DNA of 45,315 bases from contig JAIBBN010000022.1 of the NCBI GenBank assembly GCA_019694655.1, positions 1 to 45,315 of the forward strand, in the 5' to 3' direction. Positions 13,069 through 21,859 of the stretch are shown piece after piece (position 1 is the first letter of the stretch; every line of letters starts with the position of its first letter). Source of the DNA: Leptospirales bacterium. GTDB taxonomy: Bacteria; Spirochaetota; Leptospiria; Leptospirales; Leptonemataceae. The translations under genes were made by a program, and so were the position numbers. The notes beneath the pieces are model-generated. The model did not search any database. It saw nothing but the letters and a program-made list of their open reading frames with translations, and was not told where the DNA came from.

Positions 13069-13596
13069 ATGGAATCGGAGGCTGTTCCAGACATTGCTGA
13101 GTTGTATCGAACCCATCGCCGGGCGCTTTGCTCGCGACTGACACAGATGTGCGGCGACGCTGACCTGGCTGAGGAACTGACGCAGGACGCTTTTCTGGCG
13201 GCGCGCCGCTACCTTCACACTTTTCGACCGGAGAAAGGCGACGCACGCTCCTGGATATTTGCGATTGGCGCCAATCTGGTGCGACGGCGCCAGCAGCGTA
13301 CGGCGGGAAGGGAGAGTGTTGGGCTGGACATTGAGCCAGCGGATATGCGGCCAAATTTTGGCGAGGCTGCGGAACGCCGGGAGCGCGATCAGGCGATCGG
13401 CGAAGCTCTGGAATCCCTGCCGGAGCCGGACCGCAGCCTGTTGCGCTGGAAATACTATGAGAACCTGTCGCTCAAGGAATGCGCCGAACGATTGACTATG
13501 CCGCCAAGCACGGCCGCCCGACGCTTTGCAGACGCGCTGAAGCGAATGCGCGCTGCATTGCAAAGCAAGGGTTTTGAATTCGAGGGAGGGCTGTAA
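13069..13596 (+). CDS. ECF (extracytoplasmic function) RNA polymerase sigma factor
   Basis: The 175-residue protein contains sigma region 2 (LYRTHRRAL, then CGDADLAEELTQDAFLAARR and GDARSWIFAIGANLVRRRQQ). Region 4 is ALESLPEPDRSLLRWKYYEN followed by the helix-turn-helix LSLKECAERLTMPPSTAARR. There is no region 3, as in ECF factors. ATG 13069 is chosen because it starts just before region 2; ATG 13009 is an in-frame alternative, and neither has a strong ribosome site. Its TAA overlaps the ATG of the FecR-like gene (TAATG). By family precedent it directs transcription of an envelope-stress or uptake regulon in response to the neighbouring membrane protein. Confidence 0.9.
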   Translation: MESEAVPDIAELYRTHRRALCSRLTQMCGDADLAEELTQDAFLAARRYLHTFRPEKGDARSWIFAIGANLVRRRQQRTAGRESVGLDIEPADMRPNFGEAAERRERDQAIGEALESLPEPDRSLLRWKYYENLSLKECAERLTMPPSTAARRFADALKRMRAALQSKGFEFEGGL

Positions 13597-14924
13597 TGGA
13601 AAAGATTCCAAAAGCAACAGCTCGCGCCGAATTCGAAACATTGCTCGGTCGATTGCTCTGGAACGATCTGGATCGTTACGGGAAACGACGTCTGCTGCTG
13701 TTGATTCTTGCCAGCGAGGACTTTGCCCGCGAGTTTCAGGAGGCCTGCGAGCTGGATACACAGCTGCTGTCCGCTACGCCTGCAAACTCGGCTCTGGCCG
13801 CAGCCGCAAGCGCCAGGCGCAGCCATTTTCAAGAATCCGCTTCGCGCCGTCGAGGCGGCGCTCGACGCGGGCCCTGGCAATGGGCGCTGGCCGCTCTTGT
13901 TTTTGGCGCGATGGCCCTTGGTCTGTGGTTGTCGCGCCAATCGATTGAAACTTTGTTCAGGCCACAGACCACCGTCGCCTTTGGCGAGTACTGCCGGCGC
14001 GAAAATGGCATCAGACCTGGACCGCTGCTGGCCGGGAACTATGCCGGCTGGATGATTGGCAACGCCAGTCCTTCCCATTTCTGCGAATTGCGCCTGGCAT
14101 CCGGATACGTTCTGGTGCGACTCTTTCCAGGTGCGCTCAGCCGAATCTACCAGAGCGAAGGTCGAATCCAGCTTCGTCTGGAAGAAGGACGCCTTCTGGC
14201 GATCGGATTGCGGTCGGGCGCCGACCGCGAATTTGAACTCTACAGCGGCGCCGCGCGCGTACGATTGATTGGCACTCGCGTTTACTTGAGTCGTACTAAC
14301 CATCATCTGCAAGTATCGGTGCTGGAAGGCCGGGCCTCGCTGCAACAGGATCCGCTGTTTCTGGCGCCTCCGGCCGGTCAGGCATCGCTGCGCGAGGCGC
14401 TGGCCCAGCCGACTTCCACAGAATCGTTACAGACCATTGCCGATGGTCAAAGCGTATCGATTGAGGAAGACGCAACGCAGCTTGCAAAGGCGCGTCAGGC
14501 TTTACTGCGCGCACCGCAAGGCGACGCCGCTGCCGATCCCGGCAATTCCAGTCCGGACCGCGCTCAGTTGCAGAGCTGGCGCCAATCGCTCTCTGCGGAA
14601 GAGTTGCGAGCCCTGCAGGGACTGAACTCGGATTCACGCGTGGTTCAACTGGATGCCGGGCACAGTCGACTCTTGCAATCGCTGAGCGAGGCGGCTGAAA
14701 TCACGGAATCGCAGCACAGGGAGCTTGGCGAGGCGCAAGAGTCGTCCTTGCCTCGACATCGTGCACGCACCGCAGCCGGCTCGCCTCATCGAATTCTCTT
14801 AGTCGACGGCCGAATCCTGTATGGTCGCGCGGTGCAGGAGGGCGAGTCGCTGCGCGTTTTTGATGCAAGCGGCGGCGTCCAGTCGATCCCGCTGAGTCAG
14901 GTGCGGAGTGTTGAAAGCCAGTGA
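13596..14924 (+). CDS. FecR-domain membrane protein with C-terminal 'DGR' beta motif; putative anti-sigma factor
   Basis: The 442-residue protein has a cytoplasmic N-terminus of about 90 residues with an N-terminal acidic/basic helix (anti-sigma-like). A transmembrane helix lies near 94-112. A FecR-like periplasmic beta domain spans about 160-250 (LASGYVLVRLFPGAL, EFELYSGAARVRLIGTRVYL, VSVLEGRASL). A helical, Gln/Glu-rich linker follows at about 290-390. A short C-terminal beta motif around 397-440 contains LLVDGRILYG and IPLSQVRSVES. FecR proteins transmit a signal to a cognate ECF sigma factor; the one-base overlap with the sigma gene supports that pairing. The C-terminal motif is not part of classical FecR and recurs in the next gene's product. 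Confidence 0.82.
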   Translation: MEKIPKATARAEFETLLGRLLWNDLDRYGKRRLLLLILASEDFAREFQEACELDTQLLSATPANSALAAAASARRSHFQESASRRRGGARRGPWQWALAALVFGAMALGLWLSRQSIETLFRPQTTVAFGEYCRRENGIRPGPLLAGNYAGWMIGNASPSHFCELRLASGYVLVRLFPGALSRIYQSEGRIQLRLEEGRLLAIGLRSGADREFELYSGAARVRLIGTRVYLSRTNHHLQVSVLEGRASLQQDPLFLAPPAGQASLREALAQPTSTESLQTIADGQSVSIEEDATQLAKARQALLRAPQGDAAADPGNSSPDRAQLQSWRQSLSAEELRALQGLNSDSRVVQLDAGHSRLLQSLSEAAEITESQHRELGEAQESSLPRHRARTAAGSPHRILLVDGRILYGRAVQEGESLRVFDASGGVQSIPLSQVRSVESQ

Positions 14925-15799
14925 ATCCGCATCCTACAGCTGCCGCCGTTTTGTGCTCGGCTCTTTGCCTCGCCATAGGTTTCCGCGGACTAATTGCCGA
15001 TACCGTCGTGTTGAAGGATGGCCGGCGCTTTGAAAACGTTCGCACCAGACTTGGTCGTCGCGTGGTAGAGGTGCAAACGGAAGATGGGCGACGGTTGAAT
15101 TTTCCGGTAAGGTCGATGCAATCTCTGCGCTATGCGCCGGTGCAATGGGCGCCCGGTGCAGTTGACAATCAAACAGCATCGCCCTCGGTCCGTGAAGCCG
15201 ATCGCCAATCTGGATCGAACGATGTAAGCGAAACGGCGTCCGTGGCGTCGTCGTCGACGATCGGTTCGTCTGAACCAGCCGTCGTTCCCGGCGCTTGCCG
15301 CAGCGAGTTTCCTTTTCTAGAAGGTCTGATTCCCATCTGGACGCCGCACTATTGTGCGGGACGACCCTACTGGGGCTTGTTTTTCTCAGCCAGCGAATCT
15401 CTGCTCTTGTGGCAGGCCTTATTGTGGCGTAACGCTCCGGTTCTTCAGAATGACGACTTTGGATATACTGTTACGGGGCTGGCCGGCGCCAATGCCCTTC
15501 CGTCGGGCACAGGCGAACGATTTGTATTTCTTTACTATTGGTTTGATCAGGGCGCAAGGACTGTGCGCCACCCGCTTTCCAGCAAAGGTTACTTGAGTGA
15601 AGCTGACTACCGCAAGCGGCGCAATGCGTCCCTTGGCCTGTTACTTTCGGCGCTGCTGCTAGACGGATATCTGGCCTGGCTCTGGCAACCCGATTCAGCC
15701 GCCGGAAACGATGCCAGCAGTGCGGCAACCGTTGATCTGCAGCTTTTGCCCATCGGTCGCGACCAATCGCTTAGCTTTGCTTTACGCTGGCGATTTTGA
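14921..15799 (+). CDS. membrane protein with N-terminal 'DGR' beta motif, partner of the FecR-like protein
   Basis: The 292-residue protein starts at GTG 14921, whose GTGA overlaps the stop of the FecR gene (translational coupling). A signal peptide or anchor at residues 8-26 ends near LIADT. It is followed at once by VVLKDGRRFENV and FPVRSMQSLRY (about 28-71). This has the same spacing pattern as the C-terminus of the FecR-like protein. A Ser-rich linker (about 85-130) and a C-terminal part with two hydrophobic segments (about 142-163 and 236-256) follow. No enzyme motif is visible. As third gene of a sigma/FecR cassette it may be the sensor or the structural target. I do not recognise a named family. 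Confidence 0.78.
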   Translation: MNPHPTAAAVLCSALCLAIGFRGLIADTVVLKDGRRFENVRTRLGRRVVEVQTEDGRRLNFPVRSMQSLRYAPVQWAPGAVDNQTASPSVREADRQSGSNDVSETASVASSSTIGSSEPAVVPGACRSEFPFLEGLIPIWTPHYCAGRPYWGLFFSASESLLLWQALLWRNAPVLQNDDFGYTVTGLAGANALPSGTGERFVFLYYWFDQGARTVRHPLSSKGYLSEADYRKRRNASLGLLLSALLLDGYLAWLWQPDSAAGNDASSAATVDLQLLPIGRDQSLSFALRWRF

Positions 15800-16635: not shown

Positions 16636-18636
16636 TTAGCCGCGCCCGCGCAGCAAGGCCTCTTTAATCTCATGAATATGCTCGTTGGCCGTTCGCCGCC
16701 CGGCTTCGATAATGGCGTCGCGTCGATGAAAATCAAATACGTCATATTCCGAAACGGCCGGCGAGAGAATGAAATCAAAGTCATCGAAGCGCAGTTTCAT
16801 CAGCTCTATGCCCTGTACGGCAATGGAACGCGAAATGATCTTCAGGATTGGCGGCAAAGATATGTAGTCCTTAATCTTTTGCAGCGGGCCGCCGCGTCGA
16901 TCCTCCAGGCGCGTGCGCGCCGCGCGACGATCCTCCATCGGAGTCACAGTAATGCCGACCACGCGATGGAACCCCTTGCTGCGCAGTACGTTGCCTGGCA
17001 AATTGTTAAGTACTCCGCCGTCCACCAGCGCTCTTCCATCCAGTTGCATGGGCGGAAAGACCCCGGGCAAACTGACTGAAGCGCGGATCGCCGTAGCAAT
17101 GTAGCCCTGTTCAAAGAGCACGGTAGCGCCGGTATCAAGATCGACTGCGTTGCAATAGAATGGAATCTCCAGGTCCTCGAAGCGCAGATCGCCAAAAGCG
17201 CGCAATATCGTCCGCGCCAGACGCCGACCGCGAAAGAAGCTCACGAGGGGAACTGTCTTATCCAGAACCGACGTGGAATCGGGGATGATTTCCTTCACCA
17301 TGCGTCCGATTTCGGCGCTATCGCGGCCGGCGGCGTAGGCCGCGGCGATCACGGCGCCCATCGATACGCCGATTACGGCATCAAAGTCCACATCGGCCTG
17401 TTCAAAGACTTCCAGCGCGCCAATGTGGGCAAAGGCGCGCGCGCCGCCGCCGCCCAGACAAAGCGCACGGCTCGCCCCGCTCAGGCGACGGGCGGCGCGG
17501 TTAACCCCGGTATGGAAGTTCCGTTCTGGGTTAAGATGCGGCGGCGCTCCGCTGCTGGAGCGAATTGTCAAATGGTTGCGGTAAAGCGCCGAATTGATAT
17601 TGAATTCATAACGCGAGCCCCCTTGCGTAGTGTCTTCATCGCTGAGGATCAAGACCCGCTCAAAAAAATCCTCGATAGCCTCCGTGCAAAAAGCCGAGAT
17701 CTCCCGCCAGCGCAGGGATTCCGCAGCAAAAGAGCTGCGCACCAGTACGACCTGGTCGCACTGCGATACAAAGCGCTCCAGCGCCGGGCTGTTGCAATTG
17801 TCGCCGGCATCGATCAGGATTCGCGAGTAGTACTGGCGCAGTCTGCCCAGCAAGTCCGCAGCAATTTCCGCCAGTCGATCGCCTTGCTGCAAATCATCGG
17901 CGCAGGAGGCGGCATTCAAGGTGTCAAAGTCGACGCCGGATTGATCAATCAGGCGCAGGACCTCCAGCATGTTGGCCTGCGGCCAATGATTCAAAATGTA
18001 ATCAATGGCATCGTCGCCGCGATTGGCCAGCGGCGAGTCGCGATTGAAACACAGGGCCAGCGTCGGACCTGGATTCTGATGCAGCATGGTCTCCGCCAGC
18101 GCCGAAACGTACTCGCCGCCCCGACGCGCTCGGTCCGGATAGAAGAGCACCGCGATGCGCGCCGGACTCCCGCCCGGCGCTTCCACCAGCGTGGAATGTA
18201 AGCGCTCGGATAGTAATTCGCTCATGGCGCGGCCCACGGAAGGTTCCGCGGCCAGCAATTGTAGAAATGCCTCGCCCTTGATGCGATAGATACTGGAGTC
18301 CAGCGAAGCGACCGCGTCGGAGGAATGATCCTCCTGAGTCATCAAACTTACTTCGCCAAATAAACTGCCGCGCCCGTGGATGCTCACCGGCTTTTGGCCG
18401 AAGCTTTCGCCGCCGGATTGTAAAATGTGCACCTCGCCATGCCGCACCAGATAAACAAAAAACGATCTTTCGCCGCGCCGATATACTACATCGCCGCGAT
18501 CTATATGGATCAGTTCAAGAGCAGCCAGAAAGCGCTGAAACGCCTGGCTGCGCGGTGCAACGCGTTGGAAGAGTGGCTGCGCGCTCAGGAACTGAGCGTG
18601 GCTGCGGCGGTCCTTTTGGTCAGCGCTGCGGACCAT
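16636..18636 (-). CDS. cyclic-nucleotide-binding domain / patatin-like phospholipase (NTE-type)
   Basis: The 666-residue protein has three parts. Residues about 20-145 form a cNMP-binding beta barrel (IDRGDVVYRRGERSFFVYLV, then GSLFGEVSLM). Residues about 155-385 form an alpha/beta region with RIAVLFYP, VDFDTLN and SRILIDAGDN, reminiscent of a degenerate ParA/MinD-like fold. The patatin domain runs from about 390: oxyanion loop LGGGGARAFAHIG, nucleophile elbow GVSMG (Ser425) and catalytic Asp539 in LVDGG. This matches neuropathy-target-esterase-like lysophospholipases of bacteria, active on membrane phospholipids at the inner membrane. It lies 60 bases downstream of the acylase gene on the same strand, probably in one transcript. 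Confidence 0.92.
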   Translation of the reverse strand: MVRSADQKDRRSHAQFLSAQPLFQRVAPRSQAFQRFLAALELIHIDRGDVVYRRGERSFFVYLVRHGEVHILQSGGESFGQKPVSIHGRGSLFGEVSLMTQEDHSSDAVASLDSSIYRIKGEAFLQLLAAEPSVGRAMSELLSERLHSTLVEAPGGSPARIAVLFYPDRARRGGEYVSALAETMLHQNPGPTLALCFNRDSPLANRGDDAIDYILNHWPQANMLEVLRLIDQSGVDFDTLNAASCADDLQQGDRLAEIAADLLGRLRQYYSRILIDAGDNCNSPALERFVSQCDQVVLVRSSFAAESLRWREISAFCTEAIEDFFERVLILSDEDTTQGGSRYEFNINSALYRNHLTIRSSSGAPPHLNPERNFHTGVNRAARRLSGASRALCLGGGGARAFAHIGALEVFEQADVDFDAVIGVSMGAVIAAAYAAGRDSAEIGRMVKEIIPDSTSVLDKTVPLVSFFRGRRLARTILRAFGDLRFEDLEIPFYCNAVDLDTGATVLFEQGYIATAIRASVSLPGVFPPMQLDGRALVDGGVLNNLPGNVLRSKGFHRVVGITVTPMEDRRAARTRLEDRRGGPLQKIKDYISLPPILKIISRSIAVQGIELMKLRFDDFDFILSPAVSEYDVFDFHRRDAIIEAGRRTANEHIHEIKEALLRGRG

Positions 18637-18696: not shown

Positions 18697-20904
18697 TCAG
18701 TTGGCAGCAGGTTCCTCGCCCGGATGATAAACGGAGCGTGTGCGCTCCGCCAGGTCGGCGGGATCGAAGAGACTGTCGCGAAGCTGTCTATGTGCAAAGA
18801 GCGGCGCCTGGTCGGCATAGTGTTCGGAGCTGACGCGCTCCGATTGGCCAAATTGATGCAGCGACCAGCTGTGCGGTCCGTGGGGACCAAACTCCACGAT
18901 ATTGATATAGCTGTCGCCGGCAAAGCCTACAAGCCGGCCATCTCTTAATTCACAATGTATGGCGTTGAGTACATCGGGTCCGCCGCCCAGGGGCAGGTCC
19001 AGTCGTCCGCGGTGCAGGCGCTGCACCTCGCCCAGCTTTGGGTCCACGCGATCGAAGCGTTGCATCAGGAACTGCACGGCCTTTTGGAAGGCAACGTCCA
19101 GCGCCGGCAATTGGTCGCCAGGCTTGCGATCCACTTCGGTTGACTTCCATCGCTCGCGCCAGACTAGTATGGCAAGGGCGGCGGCGCGTGAATCTTCGTC
19201 CGTGCTGCGATCCCAGCGACGCAGCAGTTCAAGCGCCCGGGCCTCATCCTCATTCTCCGGCTTATATTCGGCCAGCAGCGGCAGGATTGCTTCGCGCATG
19301 ATGGGAGCGTCTGGCGCGTAGCTGCGGTCCCACTTATAGCGAATGAAATCGGCGCGCGTAATTTGAGCGTCGCCGCCAAAGAGCTGCAGCGCACGCAGCG
19401 CTCGATTGGTCATTCGCGTTTCAATGCCGGCCTCCACGGGAAACCGACGCGGGTCGGGATTTCCCGGATCGAGAGTGGTGCGCCAGGGCGTGGAGTTTGC
19501 GTTTTGCAAAAAGTCGGCAGGCGGATTCAAAATCTGCGGCAACTCCGCAAAGGACATATAGTCCTTCCAGAAATAGTCGCTGCGATCGCCAGGCAGCACG
19601 CCGTGATAATTGACGCCCGCCTTGCGCCGCGGCAGGAGCGCATTGTAGACATAAAATATGTTCTGAGAGTCGGCATAGATTGTGTGAAACATTGGCAGAC
19701 CCTGAATCTCCATTGCCTTTTGCCACTCGCCAAAATTGCGCGCACGATTCATACGATACCACTGTTCCGCGGCGCGCATCAGCCGTCCCTGGCCGGCAAA
19801 ACGAATGGCAAAGTAGCCCTGCTTGCCCCGCAGTACCGGACCAAATTCGCTATAGAGGTAATCGCTGGCATAGGGAATGGCAGCAATACCAATATCAATT
19901 TGAATTGTAGAACGGAGCACATCAAAGGACTTCCACTGGCCATCGATGCTGTACTGGCCAGGATGGGCGTCGTCTGTCTTGAGCTGGTAGACGTCCCAGA
20001 GGTCCGGCGCGTTGACGGTATGCGCCCAGCCCAGAAAATCATTGTGTCCATGAAAGATAAAGGGGCCGCCCGGAAACGTCCCGCCAATCATGTTCCATCC
20101 TTCCTCGGAGCTGATGTGCGCCTCGTACCAGGCGACGGGACCGGTCCACGGTTGATGAGAATTAATATTTAATCGAACCATACCATCGGCGCTGCGCCGC
20201 CGGCCAACGGCATGGGCATTGGAGGCCGCCATATTGTAGGCCGCCAATCCAGTTTGCGGCGATTGCACTTGCAGATCGGTTAGCGGCCATTCGATGAGAT
20301 CGCCTGCCGCCAGATTGCTGCGCTCCCGAATTGCTTCCAGCGCCCGATTTACGCCCATGAAGAGCGGAATCTTGTGCACAAATCCGGCGGCCAGATCGAT
20401 GCCGTTGATTGGAAAGAGGCGGCCATCGGCCTCGCCGGGATGGAGCGCGGCGTAGTAATTTACGCCGGCGGCGTAGCCCTCCAGCACTGCGCGCGTCTCT
20501 TTGCTCAGCTGTTGCTCGTAGTTGAGTTGCGATTCCAGCTCGACGCGCATCAGTCGCGTATAGTAGTCATTGATCAGCGCCGTCTTCGAGAGATGCAGCA
20601 GGCTCAACTGTCCGCGGGTGGCGGCAAGGATATCCTGCAGGGTTTCAAAGTTGTCTTCACACTGTGCATAGGCGAGGCCAAAGGCGGCATCGGCATCGCT
20701 CTGGCCATGAATATGTGCGACGCCCCATTCATCGCGACGGATTTGGACGCGCGACGCGTGGCGACGCTGGATGTCATTTGTCCGCGGAATGGGACGCAGG
20801 CCGCGCCGTATGGCGAAGACCAGCGCCAGTGCAAGCAGGGCCAGCGTCAGGCCCAGCAAGATACGACGATATCGCAGAAATTTGCGTCTTTTGGATTCTG
20901 CCAT
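18697..20904 (-). CDS. penicillin acylase/AHL acylase-family Ntn hydrolase
   Basis: The 735-residue protein starts at MAESKRRKF (AGAGG 6 bases upstream). An N-terminal membrane segment (15-32) acts as signal or anchor. The alpha-chain block RDEWGVAHIHGQSDADAAFG and AYAQCEDNF are canonical for the family. Autocleavage is predicted before Ser228 in MAASNAHAVG, which exposes the N-terminal nucleophile Ser of the beta chain. The variant with SNAxAVG and a following RSADG is closer to acylases of long-chain amides (PvdQ/aculeacin type) than to penicillin G acylase. The substrate may be an acyl-homoserine lactone or another N-acyl amide; no quorum-sensing synthase is visible. It is divergent from the SDR gene. 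Confidence 0.88.
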   Translation of the reverse strand: MAESKRRKFLRYRRILLGLTLALLALALVFAIRRGLRPIPRTNDIQRRHASRVQIRRDEWGVAHIHGQSDADAAFGLAYAQCEDNFETLQDILAATRGQLSLLHLSKTALINDYYTRLMRVELESQLNYEQQLSKETRAVLEGYAAGVNYYAALHPGEADGRLFPINGIDLAAGFVHKIPLFMGVNRALEAIRERSNLAAGDLIEWPLTDLQVQSPQTGLAAYNMAASNAHAVGRRRSADGMVRLNINSHQPWTGPVAWYEAHISSEEGWNMIGGTFPGGPFIFHGHNDFLGWAHTVNAPDLWDVYQLKTDDAHPGQYSIDGQWKSFDVLRSTIQIDIGIAAIPYASDYLYSEFGPVLRGKQGYFAIRFAGQGRLMRAAEQWYRMNRARNFGEWQKAMEIQGLPMFHTIYADSQNIFYVYNALLPRRKAGVNYHGVLPGDRSDYFWKDYMSFAELPQILNPPADFLQNANSTPWRTTLDPGNPDPRRFPVEAGIETRMTNRALRALQLFGGDAQITRADFIRYKWDRSYAPDAPIMREAILPLLAEYKPENEDEARALELLRRWDRSTDEDSRAAALAILVWRERWKSTEVDRKPGDQLPALDVAFQKAVQFLMQRFDRVDPKLGEVQRLHRGRLDLPLGGGPDVLNAIHCELRDGRLVGFAGDSYINIVEFGPHGPHSWSLHQFGQSERVSSEHYADQAPLFAHRQLRDSLFDPADLAERTRSVYHPGEEPAAN

Positions 20905-21025
20905 GCCGAACCTCTGAATTGCAGCCTGTCCGTAGCCGCCTTTGCGGCAACCGCGATTTCCAGTCTGCAGATGACGCTGCTGGCTGTCCCAGTCTGCTTG
21001 GCGAGCGGCAAACAATTGAGCACAT

Positions 21026-21043
21026 TGTCTGAAGCGGCAGACA
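21026..21043. promoter_or_regulatory. small dyad in the acylase/SDR divergent spacer
   Basis: TGTCTG and CAGACA are perfect 6-bp arms separated by six bases, 21 bases before the SDR start in the 160-base divergent spacer (20905-21064). It could be an operator; chance is not excluded. Nothing else in the spacer stands out. Confidence 0.25.
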
Positions 21044-21064
21044 GGCGGGGAGCGTAGAACTATC

Positions 21065-21859
21065 ATGAAGAAAATCTTGATTACCGGAGCAACGGACGGC
21101 ATCGGTCTGGAAACTGCAGCGCAGTTGGCTGAAAGCGGACATCAAGTCTGGCTGCACGGTCGCAATCAATCCAGGGGCGAGGCGGCGCTGAGCAGCGTGC
21201 AAAAACGAGCCCCTGCGGCGAAATTGAGCTTTGTGCGCGCCGATCTGGCCGACCTCGAACAGGTTCGGTCCATGGCTCAATCACTGGGCGATCAGCGCTT
21301 CGATGTTCTGATCAACAATGCTGGCGTCTTCATGAAGGAGCGGATTTTGAGCGCCCAGGGTCTGGAAATGAGCTTTGCCGTAAATCATCTGGCGCATTTC
21401 TTACTCACCGGTCTTTTGCTGCCGGCTATGCAGACAGGAGCGCGCATCATTACGCTCAGTTCCATTGCCCATCTGCGCGCTGCCCTGGATTTCGACAACT
21501 TACAGTTCGAGCGAGGCTTCAGCGGCTATGCATCTTATTCAACTTCGAAACTCGAAAACGCGATGTTTGCACGGGAACTCAGCGATCGACTTGCCGGTCG
21601 CGGCATCGCCAGCAATTCGGCGCATCCCGGCGTCATCAGTACCAAACTGCTGAAGAGCGGATTCAACGTAAGCGGCGCAAGCTTAACCGAAGGCGCAGCC
21701 ACTTCAGTTTACCTGGCCGATTCGCCCGCGGCGGAAGGCCTCAGCGGCAAGTATTTTTCCGATTGTAGCGAGACGCGAAGTAATCCGCTGGTCGAGGATG
21801 CTGGAGCGCGTCAGAGGCTCTGGCAGATCAGCGAGCAGCTTTGCGGTCTGCGCTACTGA
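21065..21859 (+). CDS. short-chain dehydrogenase/reductase
   Basis: The 264-residue protein is a classical SDR: MKKILITGATDGIGLETAAQ (TGxxxGxG coenzyme site), DLADLEQVR, INNAGVF (NNAG) and IITLSSIAHL (catalytic Ser). Then YASYSTSKLEN gives the YxxxK Tyr and Lys, followed by SAHPGVISTKL (PG motif). The arrangement resembles retinol-dehydrogenase/WW-domain-oxidoreductase-like SDRs, which often act on hydrophobic alcohols or ketones with NADP(H). The exact substrate is unknown. Its 3' end overlaps the minus-strand kinase gene by 32 bases, so the two genes are convergent and overlapping. Confidence 0.92.
   Translation: MKKILITGATDGIGLETAAQLAESGHQVWLHGRNQSRGEAALSSVQKRAPAAKLSFVRADLADLEQVRSMAQSLGDQRFDVLINNAGVFMKERILSAQGLEMSFAVNHLAHFLLTGLLLPAMQTGARIITLSSIAHLRAALDFDNLQFERGFSGYASYSTSKLENAMFARELSDRLAGRGIASNSAHPGVISTKLLKSGFNVSGASLTEGAATSVYLADSPAAEGLSGKYFSDCSETRSNPLVEDAGARQRLWQISEQLCGLRY

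Follow-up and report, generated by a model that had tools for sequence, protein, structure and literature searches.

A Leptospirales ECF sigma factor cassette in which the FecR-type anti-sigma factor and an exported neighbour carry one predicted Sm-like barrel domain

The window, i.e. the whole stretch of DNA analysed here (45,315 nucleotides; Leptospirales bacterium, assembly GCA_019694655.1, contig JAIBBN010000022.1), contains three overlapping forward-strand genes: one for an ECF sigma factor, one for an anti-sigma factor of the FecR type and one for an exported third protein. The genes and their features are as follows:

13069..13596, + strand: ECF sigma factor gene, 175 aa (Pfam Sigma70_r2 5.7e-13, Sigma70_r4_2 1.8e-10; TIGR02937 sigma70-ECF 2.3e-22)
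13596..14924, + strand: FecR-type membrane anti-sigma factor gene, 442 aa (Pfam FecR; NCBIfam NF047528)
13878..13934, + strand: single transmembrane helix of the anti-sigma factor, residues 95-113 (Kyte-Doolittle scan)
14151..14336, + strand: FecR (periplasmic, CJM-type) domain, residues 186-247 (PF04773 in the genome search)
14784..14915, + strand: predicted C-terminal Sm-like "DGR" domain of the anti-sigma factor, residues 397-440 (profile tests; AlphaFold; fold matches)
14921..15799, + strand: third gene, 292 aa, with signal peptide, Sm-like DGR domain, linker and hydrophobic helices (placed alike in loci L117, L118 and L120; AlphaFold)
14921..14995, + strand: signal peptide, residues 1-25, with an LIAD junction (hydrophobic segment 7-25)
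14996..15139, + strand: predicted N-terminal Sm-like DGR domain of the third protein, residues 26-73 (NF047433 4e-5; AlphaFold strands)
15365..15682, + strand: hydrophobic helical region, helices about 149-168 to 227-254 (AlphaFold; alignment with DUF5683/PGWGQ relatives)

The three genes overlap by 1 and 4 bases, as the initial annotation had read them: the ECF/FecR junction is TAATG, with a 1-base overlap, and the FecR and third genes have the 4 bases GTGA in common, the third gene beginning with GTG. The sigma factor consists of regions 2 and 4, and its gene overlaps that of its regulator. Pfam finds Sigma70_r2, Sigma70_r4_2 and FecR, in agreement with the description of the locus as an ECF sigma/FecR cassette; the FecR match (PF04773, residues 186-247) scores 27.5 bits against a cut-off of 24. 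The one hydrophobic helix, at residues 95-113, gives the FecR protein the topology of a membrane anti-sigma factor, and its relatives have the same single transmembrane helix by the Kyte-Doolittle scale. The alignment with NCBIfam NF047528 (LIMLP_03685 anti-sigma family) spans the full profile (residues 19-440 on profile positions 3-347 of 347), but at 69.6 bits the window protein falls short of the 200-bit cut-off; no genome rises above this cut-off in class-wide searches. A promoter and terminator scan of the cassette region gave no signal above shuffles, and a plasmid search with the third protein as query gave zero matches. Elsewhere in the window, two long minus-strand ORFs resemble by eye a cyclic-nucleotide/patatin protein (16636-18636) and a penicillin acylase family protein (18697-21102).

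In the third protein, the AD at the start of the DGR domain is invariant in the family alignment. Its two hydrophobic helices are modelled by AlphaFold with a pLDDT of about 77-85, the membrane part being of low confidence overall. DUF5683 (PF18935) has no match in the third protein at 0.05 and is matched by 8 of the 18 aligned relatives. Many relatives have a C-terminal aromatic residue, a sequence feature with which an outer-membrane location may be considered.

The initial annotation had proposed that one domain is common to the anti-sigma factor and its neighbour. The FecR tail and the third-protein domain are 18% identical, and their pairwise Smith-Waterman alignment is not significant against shuffles (p = 0.20); the shared-domain claim therefore depends on profiles, which, unlike the two sequences alone, are significant. 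A domain profile built without either window protein recovers FecR residues 400-440 at 13.1 bits and third-protein residues 27-69 at 17.7 bits, while the best of 6000 shuffled proteins reaches 5.7 bits. When the two segments are compared as profiles, as had been suggested, FecR C-termini match third-protein N-termini with a probability of 96.1% and a score of 41.3 (95.0% with the window members taken out), against a maximum of 18.8 for 200 column-shuffled nulls. The NCBIfam profile NF047433 (Lepto_7_Nterm; cut-off 43) gives 23.3 bits (E 4e-5) for the third protein and a weak match, 11.5 bits (E 0.19), for the FecR tail, both under the cut-off. A profile made without cassette-type third proteins did not recover the window third protein (4.9 bits vs 6.4 for shuffles), so the third-protein domain is a divergent subtype.

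Structure prediction agrees with the profiles. Modelled alone, the FecR tail forms five strands, the fifth being preceded by a short helical turn (mean pLDDT 86). Residues 25-73 of the third protein show the same strand order (25-31, 36-44, 48-52, 58-62 and 66-73) at a pLDDT of about 90; a fold common to the two segments is thus predicted. By DSSP and top fold matches, both models are five-stranded barrels with the helical turn before the last strand. The nearest solved folds are common to both: Hfq (Foldseek: Synechocystis Hfq 3hfo, rmsd 1.0), the DUF903/YgdR periplasmic lipoproteins (DUF903-like 2k57, Z 7.6, rmsd 1.3 over 49 residues) and a cytochrome barrel. The Z values lie below 8, and support is therefore limited to the Sm-like fold class, with no function implied. 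Hfq/Sm and DUF903 (YgdI/YgdR) lipoproteins thus share the closest solved fold with both predicted window barrels; unlike them, the window barrels are exported, fused to other domains and low in sequence identity, and an RNA role is not implied. The genome's own Hfq (L025, G000:C3:273331) has a weak Lepto_7_Nterm match (E 0.24), which fits an Sm-like fold. On profiles and models together, the FecR C-terminus (398-440) and the mature N-terminus of the third protein (26-73) are one domain.

The shared domain is Lepto_7_Nterm or a close relative of it, and it is not private to the anti-sigma/partner pair: these genomes encode a large family of paralogues. At E <= 0.1 the source genome has 14 domain matches, and relatives within the same family have up to 30 per genome; the proteins concerned vary widely in length. 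Five other proteins of the source genome exceed the NF047433 cut-off. At the FecR C-terminus the barrel occurs in 45 distinct FecR proteins among the fetched loci, some of them ECF-linked elsewhere in the phylum, so the FecR-barrel fusion is not peculiar to the window locus. ECF-adjoining FecR genes with a C-terminal barrel are found at 4 loci of the source genome and in G105, G148, G153, G155 and G161. The last 40 positions of NF047528 itself match a Lepto_7-type domain (G105:C4:62488-62613).

Like Lepto_7_Nterm (NF047433), LIC11435-family and DUF5683 proteins, many of which carry a PGWGQ-type membrane region, the window partner is exported with the same N-terminal barrel; unlike ordinary Lepto_7_Nterm proteins, the cassette partners form a distinct subtype tied to sigma/FecR loci. 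LipL45-type leptospiral lipoproteins (NF033165) combine FecR with a C-terminal barrel, like the window FecR protein, but are exported and lipoprotein-like, without the cytoplasmic anti-sigma part.

The cassette is also kept in other genera, as the initial annotation's reading implied, in several gene orders with the set held together; neither outcome that the initial annotation had named as refuting was seen. Four ECF-FecR-barrel pairs of the source genome have an exported barrel protein close by (window, L057, L061 and L058). The arrangements are:

Window layout, ECF-FecR-partner: also L117 (MAG Leptospiraceae bacterium HKST-UBA05), L118 (MAG Spirochaetia Bin_58_12), L120 and L145
Partner-first layout: L139, L144 and L141 (cut by the contig end); in L057, partner-ECF-FecR
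L061: ECF-FecR-OMP-partner
L058 (L058:7018-10188, G000:C4): ECF, FecR-barrel, LipL45-like lipoprotein (FecR + C-terminal barrel, 191.5 bits)
L131:2501-5658 (G153:C125): ECF, FecR-barrel, LipL45-like exported protein (FecR + C-terminal barrel, 178.5 bits)
L119 (G105): ECF-FecR, then SpoIIE-type phosphatase, TPR and barrel-DUF5683-like genes (by eye)
L116: locus stops at the contig edge

At the two loci where LipL45-like genes lie beside an ECF/FecR-barrel pair, an abundant leptospiral lipoprotein type thus has both domains of the neighbouring anti-sigma factor. The SpoIIE-type phosphatase/TPR/barrel-DUF5683-like trio, called by eye, is itself conserved (L058:3-3527 and L119:3743-7723), and in G105 it lies directly 3' of the ECF-FecR-barrel pair. 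Other arrangements were seen as well. In one genus (g5; L121, L122, L123 and L125), a short lipoprotein-like protein has a partner-subtype barrel at its end, and its gene is divergent from a FecR-barrel gene, with a sigma-like ORF about 1 kb further. At L060:3289-5088 (G000:C5), a barrel-less FecR gene adjoins a third-protein-like barrel protein (SLIPFYSGFYR region), with no ECF nearby. At L133:2459-8532 (G154:C18), a stretch of less than 6 kb encodes four partner-subtype barrel proteins, all in the same orientation, and the 12 kb fetched there include neither an ECF nor a FecR gene.

Members of the partner subtype mostly have NV[RK] following the DGR strand, and often PVxW following the domain; the subtype is recognised by this signature. 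For the linkage test, the third protein alone served as query, the window was excluded, and an ECF gene within 2.5 kb was counted. Such a gene lies near 9 of 16 partner-subtype members and near none of the 20 ordinary Lepto_7 proteins with the highest scores (Fisher p = 1.2e-4); the other 7 subtype members have none nearby. With a wider control that takes in all ordinary barrel proteins of the loci fetched, the comparison is 9/16 vs about 1/36; these denominators depend to some extent on judgement, since the subtype is called by eye from its motif. A chance arrangement of the cassette was rejected because of the controls.

Distances were compared for nine complete cassettes, and by identity these sort into three lineages: A (window, L117, L118 and L120), B (L057, L139 and L144) and C (L061 and L145). 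G148, G153 and G161 each contain two of the lineages, and the source genome contains all three. The identity matrices of sigma factor and partner agree (rho 0.80, p = 3e-4), as do those of FecR and partner (rho 0.50, p = 0.002). The three lineages and the agreeing matrices indicate that the cassettes diverged as units. For the two barrels, that of FecR and that of the partner, the matrices are uncorrelated (rho 0.03, p = 0.43; nine pairs, short domain), so there is no sign of pairwise coevolution. This result is the chief argument against a contact private to the two barrels.

Cell-surface signalling systems of the Pup, Fox and Fec types provide the closest known comparison. PupR has a C-terminal STN after its FecR-type subdomain, and PupB has an STN as its signalling domain; the two STNs bind one another, and binding requires both PupR subdomains (PMC7186176). 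In the Fox system, the STN of FoxA protects FoxR. Like PupI/PupR/PupB, FoxI/FoxR/FoxA and FecI/FecR/FecA, the window has an ECF sigma factor and a FecR anti-sigma factor, and it follows the same logic of one domain type on the anti-sigma C-terminus and on the partner (PMC7186176, PMC11637429). The claim that no described FecR system has such a layout is therefore not supported, given the STNs of PupR and PupB (PMC7186176). What differs is the part in the STN position, a predicted five-stranded Sm-like barrel instead of a beta-alpha-beta STN, and the partner, which is not a TonB-dependent receptor. Pfam finds no STN at the window FecR C-terminus (FecR alone is found), and STN (PF07660) has no match at E <= 0.05 in the source genome, which is 96% complete, with a positive E. 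coli control. What is new suggests a variant of the FecI/FecR switch with a different inhibitor-partner plug, the shared-domain logic itself being known from STN.

Within the genus Leptospira, the sigma/FecR half of the cassette resembles LIC_12757/LIC_12756 of Leptospira interrogans, an ECF sigma factor with a single-pass FecR-like anti-sigma factor (PMC12155086, PMC13118517); unlike in the window cassette, a domain-sharing partner is not described there. LIC_12756 is both anti-sigma factor and activator; its N-terminal domain is the anti-sigma part, and its periplasmic part is required for full activation (PMC13118517, PMC12655853). A TonB-dependent receptor that bears a signalling extension is not known for this leptospiral FecI/FecR-like pair (PMC12655853, PMC13118517).

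We read the cassette, with middling confidence, as a FecI/FecR-like surface-signalling unit in which the Sm-like barrel replaces the STN docking domain. By sequence, the anti-sigma factor consists of a cytoplasmic N-terminus, the FecR domain and the predicted C-terminal barrel. The parts, their homology, the predicted folds and the linkage are what the analysis shows; we infer that both barrels would lie in the periplasm in mutual contact, possibly edge to edge like Sm barrels. The third protein, with its possibly DUF5683-like membrane part, would sense or transduce the signal. At rest, its barrel would stabilise the FecR tail; a membrane or envelope change would loosen the contact, after which the anti-sigma factor might be cut and the sigma factor released. 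The source genome has one M50 protease, a site-2 protease candidate for such a cut. The barrel would thus do the job that STN does on both PupR and PupB, or on FoxR and FoxA. It is plausible that the anti-sigma factor and the third protein bind each other, or that they respond to a common cue.

The barrel occurs in many other exported proteins of each genome and so may bind something general. It might then be a general periplasmic anchor or ligand-binding module (e.g. for peptidoglycan, lipid or polysaccharide) that brings both proteins to the same place or ligand with no mutual contact. The size of the family (14 matches here, up to 30 per genome) and its spread over proteins of many lengths, the barrel of LipL45-like lipoproteins and the uncorrelated barrel matrices all fit such a module. 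It accounts less well for a sigma/FecR linkage that is confined to one barrel subtype and is seen for none of the 20 top-scoring ordinary barrels, or for the joint inheritance of partner and sigma factor, and we consider it rather unlikely.

ECF operons often contain targets of their own sigma factor, and the third gene overlaps the anti-sigma gene. The third protein could accordingly be a mere sigma target, co-transcribed with the regulator and with no part in sensing. Elsewhere, however, the partner gene lies upstream of the sigma gene or is split from FecR by another gene, with the barrel subtype kept, and such a role on its own seems improbable. The target and partner readings are not exclusive, since the transducer of canonical cell-surface signalling is both. 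A further alternative takes the shared motif for a chance resemblance, or for a functionless leftover of an old local domain copy, as 18% identity and a non-significant direct alignment might suggest. The profile-profile probability of 96%, the common predicted fold, and the conservation of FecR C-terminal barrels, both throughout the family and in other ECF-linked FecR genes of the phylum, leave it very little room; on these profile and fold tests it appears largely refuted, and we give it hardly any credence.

Extending the signalling-unit reading beyond this genome is a more tentative step, and a somewhat doubtful one. Leptospira-type spirochaetes would have several parallel STN-free cassettes in which a FecR barrel docks with the like barrel of a membrane partner devoted to it. 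Such a partner would then provide the leptospiral pair with its missing transducer, and LipL45-type proteins would be soluble relatives of this docking system. For leptospiral anti-sigma signalling, the cassette offers a candidate class of partners encoded in the same operon, with a putative contact surface. Lepto_7_Nterm, a domain of unassigned function that is present in many copies and also forms a LipL45-like C-terminus, gains a predicted fold and a signalling context.
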